Part shown: positions 3,565 through 33,931 of the stretch, piece after piece
Layout: each line of letters opens with the position of its first letter
How positions within the stretch are numbered: position 1 is the first letter of the stretch
Virus record (IMG/VR): IMGVR_UViG_3300031825_000396
Location: 1 to 44,725 of that record
Origin: a virus
Direction: 5' to 3' (one strand)
DNA length: 44,725 nucleotides
Notes under the pieces: model-generated
The model's input: the letters and a program-made list of their open reading frames with translations, nothing else
What the model was told of the DNA's origin: nothing
Database searches by the model: none
Position numbers and translations under genes: made by a program

Positions 3565-4058
3565 CAGACCCCGTTGTCTACCCCGCCGTGCAGCAGGTAT
3601 TGAGCCCTAAGGGCTTCGAACTTTTGCTCGTGCTGGCCATATCCGGCGCCTGGCAGGCTGGCCCAGATCCTTCGACATTTGGAGATGGCGGTTGCAAGGC
3701 GGCCTGCCTCGACGTCCGGGATAGCGCCACATTCTCGGATCTGCTGGACGGCGATGGCGTCCTGCGCGGCCGGCCCGAAGTCAGTCAGCCGAAGCTGCCG
3801 TTTGTATGGGTCGTACCAGCGTGAGAGCAGTTGGTAGCGCCCCGCCGCGGTACTCCAGTCGCTGATACGCGGGATGTAGACGCGTTGGCGTGGGTGGTCA
3901 GCGTAGCTCGTGAATTGGCCACCCCCTACGATCACGTCATACCCATGATCTAGCGTGCGCTGCACTCCGTTATCGGTGCCTTCGCTGAATGCGAGCATGT
4001 CGAGGAAGCCGGCCATGTTTTGGCCGCCTGGTAGCTTTTCTGGCTCTGTGAACGGCAT
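3564..4058 (-). CDS. Endolysin, lambda R-like lytic transglycosylase (GH104)
   Basis: 164 residues, colinear with lambda gpR. FLDMLAFSEGTDNG carries the catalytic glutamate at residue 26. Other matching blocks are HGYDVIVGG, YADHPR, TAAGRYQLLSRW, QDAIAVQQI and IWASLPGAGYGQ. The enzyme cleaves the glycan strands of peptidoglycan with formation of anhydro ends. It has no signal peptide, so export depends on the holin. The ATG at 4058 is chosen because upstream codons run through a terminator hairpin. It heads the lysis cassette just downstream of that terminator. Confidence 0.93.
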   Translation of the reverse strand: MPFTEPEKLPGGQNMAGFLDMLAFSEGTDNGVQRTLDHGYDVIVGGGQFTSYADHPRQRVYIPRISDWSTAAGRYQLLSRWYDPYKRQLRLTDFGPAAQDAIAVQQIRECGAIPDVEAGRLATAISKCRRIWASLPGAGYGQHEQKFEALRAQYLLHGGVDNGV

Positions 4059-26524: not shown

Positions 26525-26553
26525 ATTCTTGTGCATGATTTGCACAATGTCAA
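26525..26553 (-). promoter_or_regulatory. Late promoter (pR'-like) with an inverted repeat in its spacer
   Basis: Minus strand -35 TTGACA (26553-26548) matches consensus fully, the spacer is 17 bp, and -10 AAGAAT (26530-26525) matches four of six. The spacer holds a perfect 7-bp inverted repeat, TTGTGCA/TGCACAA with 5-nt centre (26529-26547), an obvious protein-binding site. The -35 overlaps the stop codon of the Q-like gene. Confidence 0.8.
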
Positions 26554-27149
26554 GCGACCTCTTCAATTTTGACCATTTCGGCGGCCTTCAGGCGGATGTC
26601 GATGGCGGTCCAGGCCACCGCCTCAAGGCCGGGCGCAGCCATCAATCCCCGCTTCCTCTCGCCCTCGATCCAGAGCTTCAGCTTGGCGTTCTGCGCGCTG
26701 ACCGTGTTGCGGTGCGCGCCGCAGTCCTCGGCGATCTGCTGCAGGTCCACACGGACGCCGAAAATCTTCTCCAAGATGGACCGTCGCACGCGGTAGTGTG
26801 AGAACGAGCCGGCCAGCTGCTGCATGGCGCGCTGGGTCAGCCAGACGATGGCCGCTTCCCATTCGGGGTTCGGGCGCCGGGCGGCGCAGCATGGCCGACC
26901 GCAGTCGCATATGACGTCGCGCGGCGCACAGCGAGCGGTCAGCACCGCCTGGTGCAACTCGGGCAGCATGCTGAGCTCGAGACGGACCATGCCGGCCTGC
27001 GCGGCGCCGTCGACGCCTACCAACCCCTTCCCCGAGCCGATGGCAGGCGTCATGGCCTTGTTCATGGCCGATGCCTGGTACTGCTGGCCCGAGTAGTTGA
27101 ACGCGAACACCAGCGCCGCGTGCGAGCTGTCGAAAAGGCGTTCTTCCAT
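26550..27149 (-). CDS. Q-like late antiterminator candidate
   Basis: 199 residues. The ATG at 27149 has GGGGA eight nt upstream; an earlier ATG at 27173 is possible but has a poor site. The middle holds a cysteine cluster (CAPRDVICDCGRPCC), which could bind zinc. The C-terminal half (VRVDLQQIAEDCGAHRNTVS) is a helix-turn-helix of the sigma-region-4 or Q type. The weight of evidence is position: it is the last gene before a strong promoter followed at once by a terminator, which is the lambda Q arrangement. I cannot assign it to a named antiterminator family, so another DNA-binding regulator remains possible. Confidence 0.6.
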   Translation of the reverse strand: MEERLFDSSHAALVFAFNYSGQQYQASAMNKAMTPAIGSGKGLVGVDGAAQAGMVRLELSMLPELHQAVLTARCAPRDVICDCGRPCCAARRPNPEWEAAIVWLTQRAMQQLAGSFSHYRVRRSILEKIFGVRVDLQQIAEDCGAHRNTVSAQNAKLKLWIEGERKRGLMAAPGLEAVAWTAIDIRLKAAEMVKIEEVA

Positions 27150-27177
27150 CGTGTTTTCCCCGGTCACATTCATTCCT

Positions 27178-28673: not shown

Positions 28674-28753
28674 CTCAGCAACCCCCACAACACTGAGCCC
28701 ACCACCAACAGGAACATCCACACGGCAACGCTGAGGGTGATCACCTCGTCCAT
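28670..28753 (-). CDS. 27-residue membrane peptide between cII-like and DUF1376 genes
   Basis: A 27-codon gene with ATG at 28753 overlapping the CII-like stop (TGATG) and stop overlapping the DUF1376 start (ATGA). The product starts MDEV and is then one hydrophobic helix (VAVWMFLLVVGSVLWGLL) ending in arginine. Overlaps on both sides and the full-length hydrophobic helix argue for a real tiny membrane protein or a coupling leader. The function is unknown. Confidence 0.6.
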   Translation of the reverse strand: MDEVITLSVAVWMFLLVVGSVLWGLLR

Positions 28754-29019
28754 CACGCCACCTCCAGTCCCTTCCGGGCGAGCGTGCGCAGCGCCTGGTA
28801 TTCGTCGCGGGGCAGGCAAACCATGCTGTCATCGCCGGGCGCGACGACATCCAGCTCGAGCACTTCGAACAGCGTGCAGAACTCGGCGAAGCTCAGGCGG
28901 TGCCCGCTGTTGTTCAGGAAGCGCGAGAAGTTCGTCGCTTCGACGCCGATGCGCTCGGCCACCTTCTTCTGCGTGAGCGGAGCAACGCGGTTCAAGACCA
29001 TCGATTCCAAGCTAGGCAT
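28753..29019 (-). CDS. CII-like transcriptional activator
   Basis: 88 residues from the ATG at 29019, preceded by GGAG at 7 nt. SLESMVLNRVAPLTQKKVAE, then IGVEATNFSRFLNNSG and FAEFCTLFEVLELDVVAPGD, are colinear with lambda CII, including the helix-turn-helix with a Q/S-type recognition helix. CII proteins activate the promoters for repressor establishment and integrase. Its position after the Cro-like gene and before the replication gene is that of cII. Sequence identity to lambda CII looks low, so the call rests on pattern and place. Confidence 0.75.
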   Translation of the reverse strand: MPSLESMVLNRVAPLTQKKVAERIGVEATNFSRFLNNSGHRLSFAEFCTLFEVLELDVVAPGDDSMVCLPRDEYQALRTLARKGLEVA

Positions 29020-29279: not shown

Positions 29280-29504
29280 TCAATGACCGCCAGACGCCCT
29301 CACGAAAGCCCAGTCGACCTTGTCGTTCAACTCTTCGCAGGTGACCGAACCATTGGTGATGCGCTCGATCACCGGACAATGTTCAGCGGCCACAGGCCGC
29401 TTTCCGGAAAGCCACTGATAAACGAGTCCTTGAGACACCCCGAGCTGCTTTGCAAATGCAGCTTGGCTGGTCTTCGTCGTACTGAGGTAGTCGGCGAGGT
29501 TCAT
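29280..29504 (-). CDS. Cro-like repressor (YdaS type)
   Basis: 74 residues from the ATG at 29504. MNLADYLSTTKTSQAAFAKQ, then LGVSQGLVYQWLSGKRPV, is a compact helix-turn-helix of the YdaS/Cro group. It is the first gene leftward from a strong promoter (TTGACA-16-TAGTAT) and is divergent from the CI-type repressor. That makes it the Cro analogue, which should shut off the repressor promoter during lytic growth. A longer in-frame TTG start at 29531 would lie nearly on the transcript start and is less likely. Confidence 0.85.
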   Translation of the reverse strand: MNLADYLSTTKTSQAAFAKQLGVSQGLVYQWLSGKRPVAAEHCPVIERITNGSVTCEELNDKVDWAFVRASGGH

Positions 29505-29531
29505 GGGTAGTTGGCGGATTTCACACCCCAA

Positions 29532-29559
29532 ATACTAGCGCGGCTCTTATAAATGTCAA
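29532..29559 (-). promoter_or_regulatory. Leftward lytic promoter (pR-like) for cro
   Basis: Minus strand -35 TTGACA (29559-29554), 16-bp spacer, -10 TAGTAT (29537-29532). The first operator covers the -10 and part of the spacer; the second starts within the -35. Transcription should start near 29525 and reach the Cro-like ATG at 29504. Confidence 0.85.
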
Positions 29560-29597
29560 TAGCTATGCTCGTTGCTAAAGAAAATAGCATTGCTACA
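29534..29597. promoter_or_regulatory. Operator cluster OR-like: three 15-bp sites
   Basis: Three copies of a 6-3-6 dyad: ACTAGCGCGGCTCTT (29534-29548), AATAGCTATGCTCGT (29558-29572) and AATAGCATTGCTACA (29583-29597). Start-to-start distances are 24 and 25 bp. They cover the cro promoter and the repressor's promoter. The consensus AATAGCnnnGCTATT is taken from all six sites in this region. Confidence 0.85.
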
Positions 29598-29599
29598 CT
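29572..29599 (+). promoter_or_regulatory. Repressor promoter (pRM-like), apparently leaderless
   Basis: -35 TTGCTA (29572-29577), 16-bp spacer, -10 TACACT (29594-29599). The expected start point is at or within a base or two of the repressor ATG (29607), and there is no Shine-Dalgarno. The third operator overlaps the spacer and -10. Confidence 0.78.
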
Positions 29600-29606
29600 C
29601 GCGCGC

Positions 29607-30611
29607 ATGTCGCGACCTAGCAAAACCCTCGAACCCTGGCAACTCGAAGACGCAGAACGTCTGAAGGCGCTCTATGAAGCGCGCAAAGGCAAGATGAGTC
29701 AGGAGGAGTTTGGCAACCGATTCGAGATCGGCAGCCAGGGCATGGTTTGGCAGTACCTGAACGCTCGACGAGCCTTGAACATCAAGGCGGCAAGCGGATT
29801 TGCTCGCGGTCTGGGCGTGTCGGTGGACGCCTTCAGCCCAAGGCTTGCGGAAGAAATACGGCTGGCGTCCAGCCAGATCGCCCAGCCACTTCCCGTCGTG
29901 CAGCCCGGCTCGGAACTCGGAAAGACGCCGTCCGACCGGATACAGTTGGTCATGGCAGAGCAGCACGTTGACGTGGTCGGGCTGGCGGAGCTGCTTGGCG
30001 TCGAAACGGCCGTCGTCCGCTCGTGGCTTGAACCTGGCGCACCCAAGCCGGGCCTGCACCACGTCGTGAAATTGCAAGAGGCATACGGCTACAGCCCGAA
30101 GTGGCTCATGAACGGCCAGGGTGATCCCAAGCTCGGCAGCGCGATAGAGCCCGAACTGGACGAGCCCACCCTTCCATTCGACACCTTCCCAATTCCCCAG
30201 GACGCGTTCCGCAAGATTCCGGTAAGAGGCATGGCGCAGTTAGGAGACAACGGCCACTTCGTGGACGTCGAATATCCAGTTGGCCACGGCGATGGCTACG
30301 TGTTCTTTCCCACGAAGGACCCAGACGCCTACGCGCTGCGCTGCAATGGCGAGTCCATGCGGCCACGGGTAAAGCACAACGAATTCGTTGTCGTTGAACC
30401 CAACACGCAGATTCAAAACGGCGACGAGGTGCTGGTGAAGGCTCTGGACGGACGGGTTATGGTGAAGGAACTAGCCTATGTCCGCGACGGTACCGTGCAC
30501 CTGTCCTCGGTGAACGAGCGCCACGGCATGCTTCGGATACCGCAAGACCAGATCGAGCGCATGCACTTCGTGTGCGGCATCGTGAAGCGCTCCGCGTGGC
30601 GTCCCGATTGA
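29607..30611 (+). CDS. CI-type phage repressor, S24 peptidase-like C-terminus
   Basis: 334 residues from the ATG at 29607. Residues about 30-75 (KMSQEEFGNRFEIGSQGMVW, YLNARRALN) are a helix-turn-helix DNA-binding domain. A second HTH-like segment at about 112-170 (IQLVMAEQHVDVVGLAELLG) resembles the same fold again. The C-terminal LexA/S24 domain has the serine in NGESMRP (S250) and the lysine in VMVKEL (K287). The region where LexA-type cleavage occurs reads RGMAQLGDNG and has no plain Ala-Gly pair. It should bind the flanking operator clusters and hold the lysogenic state. A terminator follows. Confidence 0.9.
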   Translation: MSRPSKTLEPWQLEDAERLKALYEARKGKMSQEEFGNRFEIGSQGMVWQYLNARRALNIKAASGFARGLGVSVDAFSPRLAEEIRLASSQIAQPLPVVQPGSELGKTPSDRIQLVMAEQHVDVVGLAELLGVETAVVRSWLEPGAPKPGLHHVVKLQEAYGYSPKWLMNGQGDPKLGSAIEPELDEPTLPFDTFPIPQDAFRKIPVRGMAQLGDNGHFVDVEYPVGHGDGYVFFPTKDPDAYALRCNGESMRPRVKHNEFVVVEPNTQIQNGDEVLVKALDGRVMVKELAYVRDGTVHLSSVNERHGMLRIPQDQIERMHFVCGIVKRSAWRPD

Positions 30612-30632
30612 AATAGCTGAGACACAAGACGG

Positions 30633-30658
30633 AAACCGCCTGCTGGGCGGTTTTTTTT
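30633..30658 (+). terminator. Repressor terminator
   Basis: AAACCGCC (30633-30640) pairs with GGCGGTTT over a 5-nt loop, followed by a run of eight T in total. It ends the repressor transcript 22 nt after the stop codon and isolates it from the rightward early promoter. Confidence 0.92.
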
Positions 30659-30674
30659 CGCCCGCAGCTATCGA

Positions 30675-30749
30675 AATAGCACAGCTATTAGAATAAACAA
30701 TGACAATATAATAGCGCAGCTCTTGATTGCATCTAAGAGCACGGCTATT
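30675..30749. promoter_or_regulatory. Operator cluster OL-like: three 15-bp sites
   Basis: AATAGCACAGCTATT (30675-30689, a perfect 6-bp dyad), AATAGCGCAGCTCTT (30710-30724) and AAGAGCACGGCTATT (30735-30749). Start-to-start distances are 35 and 25 bp. The last two overlap the rightward early promoter. They are the same motif as the cluster 1.1 kb away on the other side of the repressor gene. Confidence 0.87.
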
Positions 30750-30751
30750 AT
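30723..30751 (+). promoter_or_regulatory. Rightward early promoter (pL-like)
   Basis: -35 TTGATT (30723-30728), 17-bp spacer, -10 TATTAT (30746-30751). A perfect TATAAT also occurs at 30707-30712, but without a credible -35. The promoter would start transcription near 30758, ahead of the gene at 30797. Confidence 0.72.
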
Positions 30752-30796
30752 TTCTCCACGCCGCTGACGTTCGCAGCGGTTCGCTGGAGACAGACG

Positions 30797-31084
30797 ATGC
30801 CAAATGCCATTCCCCTTGCTGCCGCGTACCAGCATGCGCACGACGCGCAGCAGCGCGCCGCCGGCGGCCAGGTGGTTTCCATCCGCACTCTGGTGCGCGA
30901 GACGGTGACCCGGATCCACGGCCGCGACCATTTCGAGTTCCGCGGCACCACCGAGGATTCGGTCTACGAGGCCGCGCTCGACCGCAAGAACTCCCTCGAC
31001 ATCTACCGCTCACCGGCCATCGCCTACCGCTACTGGGAAGGCGACGAGTACGTGGTGATGGTCCGTTGCTTCGGCCTGGACTGA
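30797..31084 (+). CDS. First early rightward gene, hypothetical
   Basis: 95 residues, unrecognised. GGAG lies 7 nt before the ATG. The sequence has a helical N-terminus (IPLAAAYQHAHDAQQRAAGG) and then VVSIRTLVRETVTRI, ending in strands (SPAIAYRYWEGDEYVVMVRC). It sits where lambda has N, but shows no arginine-rich RNA-binding motif at the N-terminus, so I do not call it an N analogue. The next gene starts 9 nt after its stop. Confidence 0.65.
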   Translation: MPNAIPLAAAYQHAHDAQQRAAGGQVVSIRTLVRETVTRIHGRDHFEFRGTTEDSVYEAALDRKNSLDIYRSPAIAYRYWEGDEYVVMVRCFGLD

Positions 31085-31916: not shown

Positions 31917-32711
31917 ATGAACATCGTCACCATCCGTGCCAGTTCGCTGGCCGAACTCTTCGACTGCCCGGCGCGCTGGGAAGCGAAGCACATCCTGGGC
32001 ATGCGCATGCCCTCGGGTGCGGCCGCGCATCTGGGCACCGCCGTCCACGCCAGCACCGGGCTGTTCGACCAGGCCACGCTCGACGGCGCGCCCATCACCG
32101 CCGACGACGCCGCCGGCGCGCTCGTCGACACGATCCGCGACAAGAACGCCGAGGTCGACTGGGACGAGACCAATCCGGCGGATGCCGAACGCATCGGCCT
32201 GGCGCTGCACGCTCGCTACTGCGTCGACATCGCCCCGCGCCAGCACTACATCGGCGTCGAGATTGCCTGCGATCGTCTGGAGATCCCCGAACTGGGCCTT
32301 GCGCTGACTGGCACCACGGACCGCGTGCGCACCACGACTGATGGCGCAGGCATCAGCGACTTGAAGACCGGCGGGCGGGCTGTGGGCGCCGATGGCGTCG
32401 CCGTCACCGCCGGGCACGGCCCGCAGCTGGGCGTTTATGAGCTGCTGGCCGAACACGCCTTGGGCATCCCCATCAGCGCGCCGGCGCAGATCGTCGGCCT
32501 GAACACCGGCAAGACGGCAGCAGCGCAGCGCGTTGGCGTGGGCGAGATCGCCTCCCCGCGCGCGGCGCTGCTGGGCACCGAAGAACAGCCGGGCCTGCTG
32601 CAGCACGCTTCCCGCCTCATCCATTCCGGCGCCTTCTACGGCAACGGCAAGTCGGTCCTGTGCTCGCCGAAGTACTGCCCGCGCCACGTCACCTGCCCCT
32701 ACAAGTCCTGA
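31917..32711 (+). CDS. PD-(D/E)XK exonuclease with Fe-S cysteines (Cas4/AddB-like)
   Basis: 264 residues. The N-terminal SLAELFDCPARW carries C17. GTAVHAS (about 40-46) is the helix with the nuclease histidine, TGTTDRV holds D135, and ISDLKTG holds D148 and K150 of the PD-(D/E)XK site. Three cysteines at the end (C249, C254, C260) plus C17 form the four-cysteine iron-sulfur staple of Cas4 and AddB nucleases. It is immediately followed by the RecT-like gene, so it probably resects DNA ends for single-strand annealing, as lambda Exo does with Beta. GAGG lies before the ATG. Confidence 0.85.
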   Translation: MNIVTIRASSLAELFDCPARWEAKHILGMRMPSGAAAHLGTAVHASTGLFDQATLDGAPITADDAAGALVDTIRDKNAEVDWDETNPADAERIGLALHARYCVDIAPRQHYIGVEIACDRLEIPELGLALTGTTDRVRTTTDGAGISDLKTGGRAVGADGVAVTAGHGPQLGVYELLAEHALGIPISAPAQIVGLNTGKTAAAQRVGVGEIASPRAALLGTEEQPGLLQHASRLIHSGAFYGNGKSVLCSPKYCPRHVTCPYKS

Positions 32712-32715
32712 CCAC

Positions 32716-32743
32716 AAATTTCGAAATTTCGAAACTTCGAGAG
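32716..32743 (+). repeat. Three TTCGAA-type repeats at 8-bp period before recT
   Basis: TTCGAA at 32720-32725, TTCGAA at 32728-32733 and TTCGAG at 32736-32741 lie in an AT-rich island. The first belongs to a perfect 14-bp palindrome, AAATTTCGAAATTT (32716-32729). It fills the gap between the nuclease stop and the RecT start and could be an operator, a binding array or a translation control element. Confidence 0.7.
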
Positions 32744-32752
32744 ATAACCGCT

Positions 32753-33931
32753 ATGTCCGCAACCGCCACCCTTGAACAAATGCGCGCGCCCGCCGTGCGC
32801 GAAGCCGCCCCTGCACCCGTCGTCACGATGGGCTTCGGCAGCCTGCAGTCCTTCGAACTGATGCAGCGCGCCGCCAACCTGCTCGCATCGTCCACCCTCG
32901 TGCCGGCGGCGTACCGCAAGGTGATCGAGAAGCTGGACAAGTACGGCAACGTGAAGGAATCGCGCGAGAACCCCAACGCGCTGGCCAACGCCGTCGTCGC
33001 GCTGAACATGGCGCAGCGCATGGGCGCAGATCCCCTGATGGTGATGCAGAACCTGTACATCGTCGAAGGCCGGCCGTCCTGGTCGTCGCAGTGGATCATC
33101 GCCGCGATCAACGGCAGCGGCCGATTCTCGCCGCTGCGCTTCGATATCAAGGTGCTGGGTAAGAAGAATGTCGAGCGCACCGAAGCGGTCTGGGAAGGCG
33201 GCAACCGCACCAGTGTCACGAAGAAGGTCGACATCCTCGACAAGGTCTGCATCGCCTGGGCCATCGAGAAGGAAACCGGCGAGCGCCTGGAATCGCCGGC
33301 CGTGTCGATCGAGATGGCCGTGAAGGAAGGCTGGTACACGAAGAACGGCAGCAAGTGGCAGACCATGGACGAGGTCATGTTGCGGTACCGTACGGCCAGC
33401 TTCTTCGGCAAGCTCTACGCCCCCGAGCTGCTGATGGGCCTGCAGACCGTCGAGGAAGCGCAGGACATCATCGACCTGAACCCGGACGGCTCGTACTCGG
33501 TGGCCAGCGCCTCGGTCAACGAACTGCGCGGCGCAGCACGTACTGCTGCGGCCCAGCCCGCCGAGGTGGTCGAGCGTCCGGAGGAAGCCGCCGAGCAGCA
33601 GCCGACGGGCGACACGCAGCCGGCCGCCGATGCAGACAACGACGTTGGCCGGCAAGCCGACCTGATTCCGGACGACGAAGATCACCAGCAGCAAGACGAC
33701 CGTGCCCCGCTCAGCTTCAAAGACGTGAATCGCGAGCTGCTGCAGGCGCAGACCGTCGAAGACCTGGACTTCGCTCGCAGCCAGATCAAGCAAGTGGTAG
33801 GCGAAGCGGAACAGGCCACGCTGCACCAAGTCGCCTCGCGCCGCATGCGCGAACTGACGGCGCCGGCAGAGGACGCCGCGCCGGCCCAGCAGACCGCCCG
33901 CCGCCAGCGCGCCCCCATCAACGCCGACTAA
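32753..33931 (+). CDS. RecT-like single-strand annealing protein
   Basis: 392 residues from the ATG at 32753. Residues about 25-240 follow the RecT family: LMQRAANLLASSTLVPAAYR, NALANAVVALNMAQRMGADP, LMVMQNLYIVEGRPSWSSQW and MDEVMLRYRTASFFGKLYAP. The last 130 are acidic and glutamine-rich (EDHQQQDDRAPLSF), probably a flexible tail with a helical end. RecT anneals complementary strands for recombination, paired here with the preceding nuclease. The upstream in-frame extension overlaps the nuclease gene and crosses the TTCGAA repeats, so is not used. Confidence 0.9.
   Translation: MSATATLEQMRAPAVREAAPAPVVTMGFGSLQSFELMQRAANLLASSTLVPAAYRKVIEKLDKYGNVKESRENPNALANAVVALNMAQRMGADPLMVMQNLYIVEGRPSWSSQWIIAAINGSGRFSPLRFDIKVLGKKNVERTEAVWEGGNRTSVTKKVDILDKVCIAWAIEKETGERLESPAVSIEMAVKEGWYTKNGSKWQTMDEVMLRYRTASFFGKLYAPELLMGLQTVEEAQDIIDLNPDGSYSVASASVNELRGAARTAAAQPAEVVERPEEAAEQQPTGDTQPAADADNDVGRQADLIPDDEDHQQQDDRAPLSFKDVNRELLQAQTVEDLDFARSQIKQVVGEAEQATLHQVASRRMRELTAPAEDAAPAQQTARRQRAPINAD

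Follow-up and report, generated by a model that had tools for sequence, protein, structure and literature searches.

A probable lambda-type immunity region in a temperate myovirus, with six predicted repressor operators and an apparently exchangeable DNA-reading head

The stretch of DNA analysed here (hereafter, the window) is an IMG/VR virus record of 44,725 bases with a GC content of 64.5%. It encodes a repressor whose gene is flanked by two groups of three short dyads: a left group in the gap that separates it from a divergent cro gene, and a right group at the head of a recombination arm (Table 1). Genes for a tail sheath (PHROG 205, E=1e-117) and for a baseplate wedge and hub confirm the myovirus virion proposed in an initial annotation of this DNA, and tape measure, portal, and terminase genes also support this identity. 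Myovirus virions with lambda-like control regions are probably not unusual, so the description of the phage as an unusual mosaic seems overstated. The host is probably Cupriavidus, judging from the closest relatives of the repressor, the nearest of which (84%) occurs in C. yeoncheonensis.

Table 1. Positions of predicted features in and around the immunity region of the window
Feature	Position	Strand	Remarks
CII-like activator	28753..29016	-	PHROG 725 E=5e-15; Pfam Phage_CII E=1e-5
cro (YdaS/P22-Cro family)	29280..29504	-	Pfam YdaS_toxin E=1e-20, P22_Cro E=1e-5; matches Cro structures in PDB
PR, TTGACA-16-TAGTAT	29532..29559	-	drives cro leftward; promoter scan
Left operator O1 (OR1-like), ACTAGCGCGGCTCTT	29534..29548		overlaps PR -10; position fixed in 10/10 class A loci
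Left operator O2 (OR2-like), AATAGCTATGCTCGT	29558..29572		meets PR -35; just upstream of inferred PRM -35
PRM (inferred), TTGCTA-16-TACACT	29572..29599	+	by eye; element conserved in relatives
Left operator O3 (OR3-like), AATAGCATTGCTACA	29583..29597		within inferred PRM spacer/-10; near-identical in relatives
Repressor, 334 aa, HTH1-HTH2-S24	29607..30611	+	
Repressor HTH1 (residues 1-84)	29607..29858	+	lambda-CI-type N-terminal domain; proposed operator reader
Repressor HTH2 (residues ~107-172)	29925..30122	+	second five-helix HTH; PHROG 2328; AF2 pLDDT ~85
Repressor S24 peptidase-like C-terminal domain	30216..30608	+	Pfam Peptidase_S24 E=1e-15
Intrinsic terminator (tIMM-like), AAACCGCC-TGCTG-GGCGGTTT then T run	30633..30658	+	after repressor; by eye
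Right operator O3 (OL3-like)	30675..30689		perfect dyad
Right operator O2 (OL2-like)	30710..30724		meets PL -35
PL, TTGATT-17-TATTAT	30723..30751	+	drives recombination arm; promoter scan
Right operator O1 (OL1-like)	30735..30749		overlaps PL -10
Exonuclease + RecT-like annealing protein	31917..33931	+	PL operon; PHROG 69, PHROG 561

All six dyads start where the initial annotation had placed them, and the copy in right O3 is indeed perfect. A search of the window for AATAGCnnnGCTATT with at most two mismatches finds exactly these six matches and no others; in 100 dinucleotide shuffles, the mean was 0.52 and the maximum 3. When three mismatches are allowed, 14 matches appear versus 5.7 expected, and the eight extra ones are scattered over the window. 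Neighboring dyads are 24 and 25 bp apart in the left group and 35 and 25 bp apart in the right, so the two groups are not perfectly symmetrical. The left dyads start 73, 49, and 24 bp ahead of the repressor ATG (29607), and the right ones start 67, 102, and 127 bp after its last sense codon (30608). A DNA-level search of the gap between cro and the repressor against phage records gave no match.

An unbiased consensus scan for promoters across positions 29440 to 30820 returned two sites only, PR and PL, versus 0.6 expected. Each straddles an operator pair, with its -35 element meeting O2 and its -10 element overlapping O1. The left trio covers the divergent starts of cro (29504, minus strand) and the repressor (29607, plus strand), and the right trio covers a rightward promoter, both as originally suggested; the right boundary first assigned to the region, 30751, is the last base of the PL -10 hexamer. 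The putative PRM has a weak -35 element and is absent from the scan output. Only 7 nt separate its -10 hexamer from the repressor start codon, so a leaderless transcript is predicted, like those of lambda cI and paaR2 (PMC8630535). Between the repressor gene and the right trio lies a GC hairpin followed by a T run, in the same place as the annotated tIMM of HK620. A terminator scan omitted this hairpin, which probably reflects a scan rule that lets the stem run on into the T run.

The genes on both sides largely bear out the lambda-like arrangement that had been proposed. The leftward arm, described as cro-cII-replication-Q, contains the YdaS/P22-Cro-type cro, the CII-like gene, a primosomal protein, and RusA. 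The assignment of Q was not confirmed, in that the gene concerned (26550-27158, minus strand) matches no family in Pfam, PHROGs, or NCBIfam. This gene, which sits at the Q position, encodes 202 aa with a zinc-finger-like CDCGRPCC motif. On the other side, where recombination genes had been claimed, an exonuclease, RecT, and an SbcC-like protein are encoded behind PL. Taken with the OR-like and OL-like trios, these arms form a normal lambda layout; the "mirror image" originally noted is merely a matter of which strand was deposited.

The repressor has two HTH domains in tandem, a feature that the initial annotation missed and that sets the protein apart from lambda CI. HTH1 resembles the lambda CI DNA-binding domain in sequence (phmmer E=6e-11) and in predicted fold (Foldseek to 1lmb, TMt 0.90). 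Residues 107 to 334 are similar to the ordinary S24 repressors with a single HTH that other phages encode, and the HTH2-S24 part also occurs alone, as proteins of 221 to 223 aa in Burkholderiaceae. The protein therefore consists of a lambda-CI-type head placed ahead of a complete HTH-S24 body. Alignment predicts a catalytic pair, Ser250/Lys287, and a scissile bond between Leu212 and Gly213 (window positions 30231-30245 for residues 209-213). This Leu-Gly (in MAQLGDNG) is at the expected cut site, 37 residues before Ser250, and is invariant in 17/17 aligned sequences. Since the bond is Leu-Gly and not Ala-Gly, SOS-induced self-cleavage is uncertain. AlphaFold2 models both HTHs confidently and the S24 half poorly, the alignment being shallow, and we base no structural claim on the latter. 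A search of open-access literature turned up no relevant account of prophage repressors with tandem or extra HTHs, although such accounts may exist elsewhere.

Close relatives of the repressor came from viral contigs and Cupriavidus genomes, and 398 sampled genomes from the same family supplied more. Ten distinct Burkholderiaceae-type loci, which we call class A, share the first head of the window: the window itself, L009, L010, L011, L012, L013, L019, L023, L290, and L307. The motif search in relatives that the initial annotation had suggested found all six sites kept in every one of the ten, so its reading withstands one refutation that it had named, absence of the motif from close relatives. 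The left trio occupies invariant positions in all ten, and the spacing of the right trio is 34 to 36 and 25 bp throughout. The distance from the repressor to the start of the right trio varies widely, being 64, 67, 67, 680, 861, 973, 1,515, 2,810, 2,901, and 2,992 bp. By inspection, the inserts in the large gaps appear to consist of short genes for membrane proteins, lipoprotein-like products, and other unrelated proteins. Such variable cargo, 0.7 to 3 kb long, lies between the repressor and the right operators in L009, L010, L011, L013, L019, L023, and L290. The corresponding position in lambda holds rexAB, and this cargo region is a likely place for superinfection-exclusion or defense genes. 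Among lambdoid phages there are precedents for an OL-OR distance that varies, as do the genes it spans.

The outer right operator of classes A and B (see below for class B) lies 34 to 36 bp from the middle one (30675-30749 in the window; end+62 to +120 in L022), which is about one helical turn beyond the 24 to 25 bp of other neighbors. The right spacing in class D (L005) is 20 bp and lambda-like.

We also scanned viral contigs by using spaced AGCnnnGCT trios alone, with no protein query. Each of two scans returned at least 120 stretches, and among the matches listed, 181 of 235 distinct loci encode an HTH1 or Cro homologue, with the trio mostly 59 to 89 bp upstream of the repressor start. Most repressors beside the listed trios have 230 to 270 aa and are not long enough to hold S24 and a pair of HTHs. 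These short HTH1-type proteins, found from the operator side, tie the AGC operator independently to the lambda-type head. The AGCnnnGCT operator family is widespread, its trios turning up very commonly among viral contigs (for example, L191, L200, L227 and L192, L204, L213).

Other relatives carry an extra HTH ahead of a window-type head, and thus have three HTHs before S24 (L005-L008, L014-L018, L022). Their first heads are of three unrelated types, and each type is paired with a distinct operator trio and a distinct Cro. AGC trios are absent around the repressors of these three-HTH relatives, and their dyads are GTTACCnnnnnGGTAAC (class B), TAGACnnnnnGTCTA-like (class C), and AATAGCnnnnnGCTATT (class D). 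In each class, three sites precede the repressor and further copies follow it, much as in the window; the sites of class C, as well as some of the third sites, are weak. Classes A, C, and D have a Cro whose recognition helix is similar to the one in the first head (SQG, TKG, and YxSQI, respectively). The wider family supplies more heads with more operators on related bodies (classes E to I). For L285 and L289, a search for right-hand operator copies found none. Some classes share half-sites, TAAAC in E and F and AATAGC in D and A, with spacing that differs within each pair. At L005 positions 3643-3708, for example, the class D dyad AATAGCnnnnnGCTATT has the half-site of the window with a centre 2 bp wider, beside an unrelated head.

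Differing combinations of head and body separate the contributions of the domains. L271 keeps the head of the window (84%) and its operator on a different HTH2 (37%) and S24 (63%). L022 keeps HTH1, HTH2, and S24 (81, 80, and 92%) beneath an unrelated head and has a different operator. The head of L022 recurs in L285 (76%) on a different body, together with the same left operator type. Over 30 loci (435 pairs), identity of the first HTH is 58 to 100% in same-operator pairs and 14 to 38% in different-operator pairs (AUC 1.0), where the operator classes were named after viewing the loci, not blind, and several loci are related, so that the pairs are not independent. S24 identity predicts the operator less well (AUC 0.72): 43 different-operator pairs are at least 85% identical there, and bodies up to 97% identical accompany unrelated operators. 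Left out of this comparison were L269/L270, L279, and L288 (no clear motif) and the single-HTH loci L272, L275, and L286. L269 and L270 have two HTHs, a class C-like first head with a degenerate recognition region (GPQITQYLAGQ), and no recognizable upstream trio; they are perhaps decayed or domesticated.

Since operator type tracks the first HTH and not the body, the DNA-reading head appears, from these comparisons, to be an exchangeable and sometimes stacked module, as if a phage took on a new immunity type by exchanging its head or adding another in front. A more specific scenario, which we advance tentatively and consider rather unlikely, is that immunity switches by gain or swap of an N-terminal head together with the cro-OR block and OL, and that old heads persist and may bind their old operators. 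The buried lambda-type HTH1 retains its recognition helix in the triple-head proteins of L005, L006, L008, L017, and L022. If such a buried HTH1 did bind the old operators, a lysogen would be immune to two phage types together.

The sites, promoters, geometry, conservation, domain homology, and operator-head correlation are established at the level of sequence. The six repeats very probably serve as the sites at which the repressor binds in an on/off switch of ordinary lambda type, carried by a prophage. We are highly confident that the region governs immunity in a temperate myovirus and follows the lambda plan on the opposite strand, with the six dyads bound by HTH1 of the repressor. From this arrangement we infer binding, autoregulation, Cro competition, and looping. 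The lambda-CI-type HTH1 would be the part of the repressor that reads all six AGCnnnGCT dyads, and across the family the most N-terminal HTH would set operator specificity. At the left trio, binding would shut off PR, and with it cro, CII, and replication, and would probably control the repressor's own leaderless PRM transcript as well. At the right trio, it would shut off PL and the recombination genes. Competition from the YdaS-type Cro is to be expected at these sites. Dimers are probably linked through the C-terminal domain, which may also hold the two trios together in a loop of about 1.1 kb.

Looping, which the initial annotation had raised, is plausible. It has been measured at 0.6 to 2.3 kb for related repressors; lambda CI, HK022 CI (about 700 bp natural separation), and phiKO2 CB (about 630 bp) all loop, and full OL/OR gives about 16% looping at 20 kb (PMC8053113). 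Given these measurements, 1.1 kb is a comfortable separation. Helical phasing of the OL-OR distance was not found among seven central-operator distances (Rayleigh p 0.17 to 0.92, depending on the assumed period), so these distances speak neither for nor against looping. The repressor might also bind both trios as two separate repression points without ever looping, an alternative that we judge less probable and still substantial. It would fit the wide range of right-group distances, which run from 64 to 2,992 bp past the repressor stop and favor no helical phase, and the 933W repressor reportedly lacks cooperativity at adjacent sites (PMC3317979). However, none of the ten class A loci has lost the three-plus-three layout, and the repressors of lambda, HK022, and phiKO2 all loop (PMC8053113).

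Other readings concern what occupies the dyads. HTH2 could read the operators instead of HTH1, or both HTHs could contact DNA jointly, given that HTH2 is a confidently modelled HTH and that HTH2-S24 exists alone as a Burkholderiaceae repressor. This is quite improbable: L271 retains the operator with a diverged HTH2, L022 has another operator despite its conserved HTH2 and S24, and HTH1-type proteins too short for three domains adjoin the same operators. By eye, the left gap of class A shows no conserved block besides the promoters and the three dyads, and no separate candidate operator for HTH2. Cro is also a plausible reader, since its recognition helix (SQGLVYQWL) is like that of HTH1 (SQGMVWQYL). 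That the dyads are used solely by Cro or some other regulator, while the repressor acts at different sites, is nevertheless very improbable, because operator class tracks the first HTH of the repressor perfectly in the 30 loci. Finally, local AT richness alone might produce repeats in the gap, but we rejected this explanation as having a negligible chance of being right, because six dyads were observed versus 0.52 expected and they are conserved across diverged loci.

If the dyads are operators for HTH1, the lambda plan, with operator geometry nearly identical to that of lambda, now extends to a Burkholderiaceae myovirus. One body family under at least nine heads, each with its own operator, makes specificity visible as a detachable module. 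Immunity-group jumping, in which repressor, cro, OR, and distant OL all change, is a long-standing question that becomes testable by domain swaps. The natural OL-OR series, 1.15 to 4.08 kb between central operators, likewise offers a means of testing how looping constrains phage evolution.

Among known systems, the window shares with lambda the three-plus-three operators, the PR/PRM/PL layout, the CI-type N-terminal domain, and the CII and recombination arms. Distances from operator centres to the repressor ATG are 66, 42, and 17 bp in the window and 66, 42, and 19 bp for cI in the annotated lambda record. In contrast with lambda, the window has 15-bp AGCnnnGCT operators, a YdaS-type Cro, and no rex-like genes. 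Its OL spacing is 25 and 35 bp, versus 24 and 20 bp in lambda, the difference residing in right O3-O2. The O1-O1 distance is 1,201 bp in the window and, according to their annotations, 2,407 bp in lambda, 1,334 bp in HK620, and 2,097 bp in mEp332. Lambda CI has one HTH before S24 and an Ala-Gly scissile bond, whereas the window repressor has two HTHs and Leu-Gly, with the Ser/Lys dyad present. Of the annotated phage homologues of HTH1, the repressors of HK620 and other HK/mEp lambdoid phages are the nearest, at about 48% identity. HK620 is alike in operator geometry, tIMM, and O1-O1 distance, and differs in its AAATACCnnnGGTATTT-type operator and single HTH. In the PaaR2-YdaS-YdaT switch of CP-933P from E. 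coli O157:H7, repressor and YdaS footprints overlap and the system is bistable (PMC8630535). That switch has a YdaS-family Cro, a leaderless repressor, and PRM/PR/PL, as predicted here (PMC8630535), but its operator is of the GTTTAGTAA type, and PaaR2 and YdaT stand where the window has HTH-HTH-S24 and a CII-like protein. HK022 CI and phiKO2 CB also hold divergent operons through OL and OR flanking the repressor gene, at the shorter separations given above, where looping has been measured (PMC8053113). In the Pseudomonas phages phita81A, 5371, and D14C, the same AGCnnnGCT trio lies upstream of an annotated 268-aa HTH1-type cI; there, the 35/25 spacing is at the repressor side, and the cI has the length of a single-head protein.
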